A stretch of DNA of 64,000 bases from Nitrospinota bacterium. Its GTDB lineage: Bacteria; Nitrospinota_A; UBA7883; JACRLM01. Of this stretch, positions 11,811 through 62,699 are shown one piece after another. The translations under genes were made by a program, and so were the position numbers. Every line of letters starts with the position of its first letter. Within the stretch, counting starts at the first letter, position 1. A model generated the notes under the pieces. The model ran no database searches. It saw nothing but the letters and a program-made list of their open reading frames with translations, and was not told the origin of the DNA. The stretch covers positions 1 to 64,000 of the forward strand of contig JACQXA010000003.1 in assembly GCA_016208975.1 (NCBI GenBank), in the 5' to 3' direction.

Positions 11811-12115
11811 CTTCCCCGAGGTCGCCTGACCTCGGTTCCCGCTTCCCCGTGGTCGCCGACCACGGTTTCCCCTTCTCGCTTCCCCGTGGTCGCCTCGGGC
11901 TGTTGCCCAAATTGTTTCCCGCAATGTCACCCCGGCCAAGCGAAGCGCGAGCCGGGGCCACGACCTTATATGTATTTGAAAAAAGGCCCTGATCCCGGGT
12001 CTCCGCTTGCGCTACGCCCGGGACGACATCGCTGAAACGGCGCTAAACTATTTGGGCAACAGCCCGGCCTGACCTCGGTTCCCGCTACCCCGAGGTCGCC
12101 GGACCACGGTTCCCC
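11811..12115. repeat. Module A units interrupted by element E
   Basis: The 397-bp gap between the TPR protein and the kinase (11785-12181) holds module A palindromes with both GTGGTC and GAGGTC arms. They occupy 11811-11895 and resume at 12067-12115. The unit at 11883-11895 is split by a 171-bp element E. Bases 12116-12181 are unique and carry AGGAAG about 7 bp before the kinase ATG. Confidence 0.85.
11896..12066 (-). mobile_element. Element E copy 1 (171-bp MITE-like, intact)
   Basis: Both ends carry the 17-bp inverted repeat CGGGCTGTTGCCCAAAT. The element is flanked by a direct repeat GCCT (11892-11895 and 12067-12070). Removing the element and one GCCT restores a continuous module A unit. 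It has no coding capacity. Relative to the copies at 59.1 and 62.6 kb it is inverted. Confidence 0.9.
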
Positions 12116-19389: not shown

Positions 19390-19530
19390 GGTAGTGTCTC
19401 AGTTTGAAAGTACAGGGGAGATTCTTCACTTACGCTCAGAATGACAATATAAAAGCCGTTGATAACATTGTCATCCTGAACGAAGCGCAAGCGAAGTGAA
19501 GGATCTGTCTATTATTTGAGATTCAAACTG
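19390..19530 (+). mobile_element. Element D copy 1 (right end degenerate)
   Basis: The left terminal repeat is GGTAGTGTCTCAGTTTGAA. The internal inverted pair CGCTCAGAATGACAAT / ATTGTCATCCTGAACG and the outer pair CTTCACTT / AAGTGAAG follow. The right end stops after ATTCAAACTG and lacks the terminal CACCACC. It ends about 50 bp before the sdhA start, so any sdhA promoter lies in or upstream of it. Confidence 0.85.
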
Positions 19531-19582
19531 GTTTGAGGGGGCGGCCGTTTTTCAAGGAAAATCCCGCCACGGCAGGAGAATT

Positions 19583-27359: not shown

Positions 27360-27540
27360 GGTAGTGTCTCAGTTTGAAAGTACAGGGGAGATTCTTCACT
27401 TACGCTCAGAATGACAATATAAACGCCGTTGATAACATCGTCATCCTGAGCGAAGCGCAGGCGAAGTGAAGGATCTGTTTTAAAAGCTTCCCCGTGGCCG
27501 CCTATTAAAAGCTTCCCCGTGGTCGCCCGACCACGGTTCC
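27360..27540 (+). mobile_element. Element D copy 3 with module A tail
   Basis: D copy 3 spans 27360-27480 with an intact left terminal repeat. Its right end is fused to TTAAAAGCTTCCCCG at the same point as copy 2, followed by two A cores to 27540. The shared junction shows that a D-A block was duplicated in tandem here. The 539-bp gap 27046-27584 contains nothing else except a TTGACA at 27551-27556. Confidence 0.85.
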
Positions 27541-48040: not shown

Positions 48041-48191
48041 GGTAGTGTCCCGGTTTGAAAGTACAGGGGAGATTCTTCACTTACGCCCAGAATGACAATA
48101 TAAAAGCCGTTGGTAACATTGTCATCCTGGGCGAAGCGCAAGCGAAGTGAAGTATCTGTCTGTTATTTGAGATTCAAACTGATACACCACC
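48041..48191 (+). mobile_element. Element D copy 4 (151 bp, complete, with 8-bp target duplication)
   Basis: The ends are GGTAGTGTCCCGGTTTGAA and, inverted at the right, GGTGGTGTATCAGTTTGAA. The flanks carry the perfect 8-bp direct repeat CATTTGAT (48033-48040 and 48192-48199). An internal inverted pair CGCCCAGAATGACAAT / ATTGTCATCCTGGGCG shows a compensated stem change relative to other copies. It has no coding capacity. The rest of the cheA-lipoprotein gap (47796-48275) holds only promoter-like AT-rich DNA. Confidence 0.93.
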
Positions 48192-58212: not shown

Positions 58213-58446
58213 ATGTTGCAGGCAATAAGGGGTCATTACAAGAACGGCAAGATTGAGCTTTACGAGGAGCCGGAATTGAAGGAAGGAGAAATAATTGTGA
58301 CCTTTCTGAATTCGGGGGAAGCGGGATCGATTGATTTGCAGGCTCGCGGAATATCAATAACCGAGGCGGCTGATCTGAAAAGCAGGCTGAAAACATTTGA
58401 AGCCGACTGGAACGCCGAGGGGATGGATATTTATGACAAGGTTTAA
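58213..58446 (+). CDS. Antitoxin-like protein upstream of a MazF-type toxin
   Basis: The 77-aa protein begins MLQAIRGHYKNGKIELYEEP, the short beta-rich start seen in DUF2281/AbrB-like antitoxins, and has an acidic C-terminus (ADWNAEGMDIYDKV). It overlaps the start of the toxin by 14 bp, the usual coupled order (antitoxin first). Family identity is by context and general pattern. DNA-binding autoregulation at the promoter 30 bp upstream is expected but unproven. Confidence 0.7.
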   Translation: MLQAIRGHYKNGKIELYEEPELKEGEIIVTFLNSGEAGSIDLQARGISITEAADLKSRLKTFEADWNAEGMDIYDKV

Positions 58447-58783
58447 GAAAGGGGCGATCGTATTAGTCCTTTTTCCCAATTCTGATCTCATAACCGCAAA
58501 ACGCCGTCCTGCCTTGGTGGTTCAAGCCGATACTCCAAATACAGAATTGGATCAAGTCATCATAGCCATGATAACAAGCAACCTTGCCCGTGACGGCCAT
58601 CCCTGCCGCATAAGAATCAACAAGGATTCAAATACAGGCAAACAGGCCGGATTGCTTACCGATTCCGTGATCATGATGGACAATGTGGCTACTGTGCGGC
58701 TGGTTGAGATAGACAAAGCCCTTGGAACCATAACGGACATGACAGCAGTGAACAACGCCCTGAAAGTGACTTTTGGATTATAG
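58433..58783 (+). CDS. MazF/PemK-type endoribonuclease toxin
   Basis: The 116-aa protein has the PemK/MazF fold pattern: FKKGAIVLVLFPNSD at the start, the conserved strand RRPALVVQADT and TELDQVIIAMITSN. The helix KQAGLLTDSVIMMDNVATV precedes the C-terminal strand. Members are sequence-specific mRNA interferases. The ATG at 58433 overlaps the antitoxin stop; an upstream ATG at 58397 would cover most of its end and is less likely. Next are 193 bp of unique DNA, then element D copy 5. Confidence 0.85.
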   Translation: MTRFKKGAIVLVLFPNSDLITAKRRPALVVQADTPNTELDQVIIAMITSNLARDGHPCRIRINKDSNTGKQAGLLTDSVIMMDNVATVRLVEIDKALGTITDMTAVNNALKVTFGL

Positions 58784-58976
58784 GCTCTTGGAGACTCTAC
58801 TCTACGGTATAGGGAGCGAAAAGGTTTTTTACAGCGCGCAAAAATGCTGGAGAGCCAAACAGGGCTATGAAGCGGGAAGAATTTAATAAATATTTTACTC
58901 GTGATTTTTGGCTGGCCTTTAAAGGAATCGCTTTCCCCGTCAATATTACCAAAACAAACGAACCTAAATAAGATCG

Positions 58977-59302
58977 GGTAGTGTCTCAGTTTGAAAGTGC
59001 AGGGGAGATTCTTCACTTACGCTCAGAATGACAATATAAAAGCCGTTGATAACATTGTCATCCTGAGCGAAGCGCAAGCGAAGTGAAGGATATGTCTGTT
59101 ATTTGACGGGCTGTTGCCCAAATAGTTTAGCGCCGTTTCAGCGGTGTCGTCCCGGGCGTAGCGCAAGCGGAGACCCGGGATCAGGGCCTCTTTTCAAATA
59201 CATATAAGGTCGCGGCCCCGGCTCGCGCTTCGCTTGGCCGGTGTGACATTGCGGGAAACGGTTCGGGCAACAGGCCGTTGAAATTCAAACTGGGACACCA
59301 CC
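58977..59302 (+). mobile_element. Element D copy 5, split by element E
   Basis: D copy 5 runs 58977-59106 and 59282-59302. Its ends are GGTAGTGTCTCAGTTTGAA and, inverted, GGTGGTGTCCCAGTTTGAA. Removing the 171-bp E element and one 4-bp TTGA leaves 151 bp, exactly the length of copy 4. Flanks TAAGATCG (58969-58976) and GAAGATCG (59303-59310) match at 7 of 8 positions, a probable target duplication. Confidence 0.92.
59107..59277 (+). mobile_element. Element E copy 2 (171 bp) inserted in element D
   Basis: It has the same length as copy 1. Ends are CGGGCTGTTGCCC and, inverted, CGGCCTGTTGCCC. A 4-bp direct repeat TTGA flanks it (59103-59106 and 59278-59281). The inserted position within D (between TATTTGA and the D right end) proves E moved after D. 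Confidence 0.92.
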
Positions 59303-59332
59303 GAAGATCGGGCCATCGCCAACCGCCACTTG

Positions 59333-62558: not shown

Positions 62559-62699
62559 CGGGCTGTTGCCCAAATAGTTTAGCGCCGTTTCAGCGATGTC
62601 GTCCCGGGCGTAGCGCAAGCGGAGACCCGGGATCAGGGCCTCTTTTCAAATACATATAAGGTCGCGGCCCCGGCTCGCGCTTCGCTTGGCCGGGGTGAC
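62559..62699 (+). mobile_element. Element E copy 3 (right end lost)
   Basis: The left terminal repeat CGGGCTGTTGCCCAAAT and the internal inverted motifs are intact. Similarity stops after GGGGTGAC at 62699, so about 30 bp including the right terminal repeat are missing. It lies between the kinase and mdh (gap 62533-62747), 48 bp after the mdh stop. Confidence 0.88.

Follow-up and report, generated by a model that had tools for sequence, protein, structure and literature searches.

The IS1 family (single-ORF, PF03400/NF033558), together with MITEs derived from it, is the closest described system for the first of the two repeats treated here, and two further systems are close to the second. REP-targeting insertion sequences (ISPsy8, ISPa11, ISPpu9/10 and ISRm19/22) insert specifically into a dispersed palindromic repeat (PMC1525189). 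Members of the IS1182 family have been reported to target palindromes; among them, IS1272 takes the place of the stem-loop that it targets, without a duplication, and duplication of the loop only corresponds to a hypothetical pathway, pathway c, drawn for IS1272 (PMC5678879).

At the locus described here, one repeat (E) lies inside another (D). D shares with the IS1 family the 8-bp target duplication, and in relatives and viral contigs an IS1-type transposase lies between identical ends; D differs in that it keeps only the ends, without the gene, in a host genome without the transposase. E resembles the REP-targeting elements (PMC1525189) in that its subtype E1 inserts specifically into a dispersed palindromic repeat, here called A, but E1 is a 171-bp non-coding element. 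Some members of the IS1182 family share with E1 the targeting of palindromes, and an E-like end lies beside an IS1182-type gene fragment, which makes this family a lead; unlike IS1272, which leaves none, E leaves a 4-bp duplication (equal to the loop in E1), and an intact autonomous element was not found. The nest very probably consists of two non-autonomous, non-coding transposable elements, of which E (subtype E2) entered later into D, an IS1-family MITE. The nest itself is routine and the locus ordinary overall; the targeting of hairpin loops is the interesting part. The nest leads to a genome in which orphan MITEs of the IS1 family number about 100 and in which a second MITE homes into other repeats, a warning against reading nested repeats as a simple clock.

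Structure of the nest and the D family

The window is the stretch of 64,000 nucleotides at the start of contig C3 of genome G000 (2.97 Mb, 4 contigs, 100% complete). The initial annotation had placed a D copy interrupted by E at 58969-59310, and these limits were exact to the base, with both outer duplications included. The features of the nest, followed by the other D and E copies discussed below, are as follows.

58969-58976, no strand: left 8-bp target duplication of D, TAAGATCG
58977-59106, plus strand: left 130 bp of D copy 5, ending in the first TTGA; left terminal inverted repeat at 58977-58995
59103-59106, no strand: left 4-bp target duplication of E, TTGA, part of D
59107-59277, plus strand: E, 171 bp, subtype E2, ends CGGGCTGTTGCCC...GGGCAACAGGCCG
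59278-59302, plus strand: second TTGA (59278-59281) and right end of D; right terminal inverted repeat at 59284-59302
59303-59310, no strand: right 8-bp target duplication of D, GAAGATCG, 7/8
48041-48191, plus strand: intact 151-bp D copy with a perfect 8-bp duplication, CATTTGAT
19390-19531, plus strand: D copy with a degraded right terminal inverted repeat
27360-27480, plus strand: left part of D, 121 bp, right end replaced by A units
11896-12066, minus strand: E, subtype E1, in an A-hairpin loop, 4-bp duplication GCCT (AGGC on the opposite strand)
62559-62699, plus strand: E, subtype E2, right end truncated, 141 of 171 bp

D copy 5 (58977-59302, 326 bp) is composed of a 151-bp D, a 171-bp E and one duplicated TTGA, with GGTAGTGTCTCAGTTTGAA as its left end from 58977 and TTCAAACTGGGACACCACC as its right end to 59302. 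Without E and one TTGA, 151 bp remain (326 - 171 - 4), as in the intact copy at 48041-48191, and this remainder can be aligned with intact D copies over its full length. The outer duplications are equal at 7 of 8 positions. Both points had been claimed beforehand and were borne out. A gene pair for an AF2212-like antitoxin and a PemK/MazF-like toxin (58213-58783) adjoins the nest, and a relative of this pair, 84% identical, is located at C4:2113112-2113594.

The D and E counts derive from searches and from fetched stretches of the genome. The D end, with up to 3 mismatches, gave 212 matches genome-wide, compared with 2 for the reversed control pattern. The fetched stretches contained 104 D matches, including 88 full-length copies, and 78 of these 88 were exactly 151 bp long. 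Target duplications matched at 8/8 positions in 40 and at 7/8 positions in 23 of the full copies (63 in total), the chance of a 7/8 or 8/8 match being 3.8e-4 per copy. Since E duplications were also perfect in 7/7 complete copies, the structure of the nest is not due to chance. D, a short non-coding element of 151 bp with 19-bp terminal inverted repeats, is thus a real MITE family with about 100 copies in the genome. The length of its interior is not fixed, as a 194-bp copy with an internal 43-bp tandem duplication (L038, C1:322657-322850) has a perfect 8-bp duplication. A D-ended element of 1375 bp (C3:141171-142545) was considered as the autonomous parent of D and rejected; it is a D copy whose sequence is split by an IS3-family element that has both OrfA and OrfB. 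Its junctions repeat 13-14 bp of D, longer than is usual for IS3.

IS1-type transposases between D-type ends

In the same phylum, for which 24 genomes were covered, D-type ends also enclose other short elements, 131-264 bp in length and flanked by 8-bp duplications. In one relative (G014), a 2881-bp element (L117) has 19-bp ends identical to those of D and an 8/8 duplication, GCAAAGTC/GCAAAGTC, and codes for a 310-aa IS1-type transposase and an AAA_21 ATPase. The transposase matched PF03400 above the Pfam cut-off and NF033558 at 1e-18; its score of 68 bits against NF033558 is below the NCBIfam curated IS1 cut-off of 100, so this transposase represents a divergent branch of IS1. More than 80 stretches of viral contigs contained an exact match to the D end, and in 27 of them the ends formed a pair. 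Among these 27, at least 7/8 positions of the duplication matched in 20, and a homologous transposase or its remnant was enclosed in 19; the elements ranged from 396 bp to 3.8 kb. The D ends, GGTRGTGTCYCAGTTTGAA, track IS1-type genes. They begin with a GGTRRTG-like sequence, as IS1 ends do.

No homologue of the L117 transposase was found in the 100% complete genome G000, and D is therefore an orphan IS1-family MITE. It cannot move at present unless a transposase comes from outside; a partner in the same genome is not a requirement for a MITE. An IS256/Mutator element was rejected as the parent of D, since a PF00872 transposase is absent from the genome and the ends track IS1-type genes. D would have been mobilised in trans by an IS1-type transposase since lost from this genome.

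The autonomous IS1-family elements with D-type ends (L117, L239, L277, L289, L300, L304, L306 and L312) often carry passengers, namely an AAA_21 ATPase, an HTH with Peptidase_M78, a P63C domain, an NYN domain or a STAND-like ATPase. An ORF of 77-90 aa like MPKGPxGQKRPADVIGNAxxxxxIATGE, without a Pfam match, recurs in them.

Subtypes, targets and candidate transposase of E

Eleven strong matches to E were identified, of which 7 were complete, with a length of 171 bp (175 bp in one copy) and inverted ends. All 7 complete copies were flanked by perfect 4-bp duplications (TTGA, TTAA, TTAA, CGGC, GCCC, AGGC and GCCC). With inverted ends, a constant length and a constant length of the duplication, E is a MITE. 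It falls cleanly into two subtypes that differ at the right end and at one internal base. E1 has the diagnostic sequence AAGGTCGTGG and the right end CAGCCC, and 4/4 copies were located in A-hairpin loops of the GTGGTC-NNNN-GACCAC type, the four duplicated bases being the loop. E2 has the diagnostic sequence AAGGTCGCGG and, where this end is present, the right end CAGGCCG; its sites were TTGA or TTAA in the 3 complete copies and T-rich in the partial copies. The E2 target, read from the flanks, is asymmetric and TTRAGAYY-like.

About 66 unoccupied A hairpins within one mismatch were listed genome-wide, and the binomial chance of 4 out of 7 E insertions falling within roughly 70 A-type loops is near 1e-17. 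The A hairpin folds well as single-stranded DNA and the E2 sites do not; the preference for palindromic targets was seen in E1, and E2 was not found in strong hairpins. It is possible, though we put it forward tentatively, that E1 is a DDE-type element whose target is recognised as a stem-loop and whose duplication is exactly the 4-nt loop, and that the subtypes have different target modes (stem-loop or TTRA). Duplication of exactly the loop would be the outcome of the pathway c drawn for IS1272 (PMC5678879). If loop targeting by E1 is true, E1 would offer a small natural system in which to test how structure guides a DDE transposase to its target.

Another DDE transposase probably moved E in trans; its identity is uncertain, with an IS1182-like enzyme as the lead. 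In a single case, in a member of the Desulfobacterales (L228), an E-like end was located about 30 bp from one decayed IS1182-type gene fragment. This genome contains no PF13751/IS1182 transposase, no autonomous element with E ends was found at the PF13751 loci of the phylum, and the viral contigs gave no match to an intact autonomous element with E ends (CGGGCTGTTGCCCAAA).

In the Desulfarculales, an E-like element (L230) is likewise flanked by arms, GGCAAGGTC and GACCTTGCC, and its 4-bp duplication has diverged. Together with L226, L221 and L231 from the same order, it is short and has E-like ends around a different inner palindrome of the TCATTCCCGC...GCGGGAAT type. In the Desulfarculales elements, as in D and E, common dispersed palindromes seem to be enclosed by the ends of transposons. 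Genome G012 has MITEs whose ends are similar, and these did not show the 4-bp duplication.

Order of the insertions

E lies inside D, so D sequence was present before E arrived. The order of the two insertions is thereby fixed; the D and E families and the palindromic repeat A are not dated against each other. The earlier reading that E jumped after D holds in that this E entered pre-existing D sequence, but it does not establish that the insertion took place at this locus, as indicated by a second nested copy on contig C2 (L008). This copy is a shortened D[E] of 202 bp, with 31 bp of the D left end, 142 bp of E2 and 25 bp of the D right end. E occupies the same D position in the same orientation, the D right end starts at the same TTGA, and the copy has its own perfect 8-bp duplication, GGGGAGGG. 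With a second D that has E2 at the same site, E is seen to home to repeats, and D[E] may move as a unit.

The L008 copy also bears on whether the nest is an assembly chimera formed at a repeat. Both ends of contig C2, from this same assembly, lie within copies of E, which means that E did break the assembly. However, the D halves of the nest are in the right order and register, with matching outer and TTGA duplications, a chimera would still require an E inside a D, and L008 independently has the same TTGA junction; a chimera is very improbable. The end of C2 (whose two terminal E copies are L009 and L011) falls at the base at which the truncated E departs at position 62699 of the window, as expected for a branch of an assembly graph. 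C2 as a circle closed at E was not supported, as the end copies differ in their flanks (TTGA and TTTA).

It is rather unlikely that E entered D elsewhere and that the 326-bp D[E] was then transposed here by means of the D ends, in which case the outer duplication would date the arrival of the composite and E may predate the arrival of D at this locus. The outer duplication of L008 makes such an arrival at 59 kb possible, and D-type ends tolerate varied interiors, as in the 194-bp D copy and the elements of 396 bp to 3.8 kb. Against this, the full 326-bp composite was found at no second locus. L008 and the nest have no private E mutation in common, and divergence is far greater in the D arms of L008; the two therefore do not resemble recent duplicates of a single composite, and the asymmetric TTRAGAYY-like target of E2 independently accounts for the same site and orientation. 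We infer that E2 was inserted at this locus, and not before D[E] moved here; it would have entered the resident D at TTGA near the right end, with a 4-bp duplication.

Divergence agrees with an E2 younger than D. In L008, the D arms differed from the D consensus at 8/56 positions and the E part at 1/142 (Fisher p 2e-4, mismatches counted by hand). Mean distance to the consensus was 2.2% for E and about 3.6-3.7% for D (p 0.014, with only 7 E copies). At the nest itself, private mutations were alike, with about 3/151 in D copy 5 and about 3/171 in its E. Among 29 relatives, the nearest of them from a different genus of the same family, none yielded an orthologous locus, whether occupied by E or D or empty.

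The initial annotation had extended the order to the A units, with D and E both later than A. E does interrupt an A unit at 11.9 kb, where the hairpin is split at 11896-12066 with a GCCT duplication. That D followed A found no support: an A-like motif lay within 40 bp of 3/88 full D copies and an A unit was interrupted by 0/88. The E at 11.9 kb and the nested E cannot be taken as one wave either, because they belong to E1 and E2, with different diagnostic bases and target types. A succession of three waves, in which A spread first, then D and then E, is consistent with E interrupting both A units (4 copies) and D units (2 copies) and with the lower divergence of E. The missing interruptions of A by D argue against it, as do the two E subtypes, which make E in A and E in D different events, and the A units joined inside D at 27.36-27.54 kb, and we consider it unlikely. 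At that last site D has lost its right end and continues from position 121 into A units, whereas the copy at C4:909 kb, which shares the left flank of this D, is intact and has a TTCAACCA duplication; the histories of A and D are accordingly interleaved.
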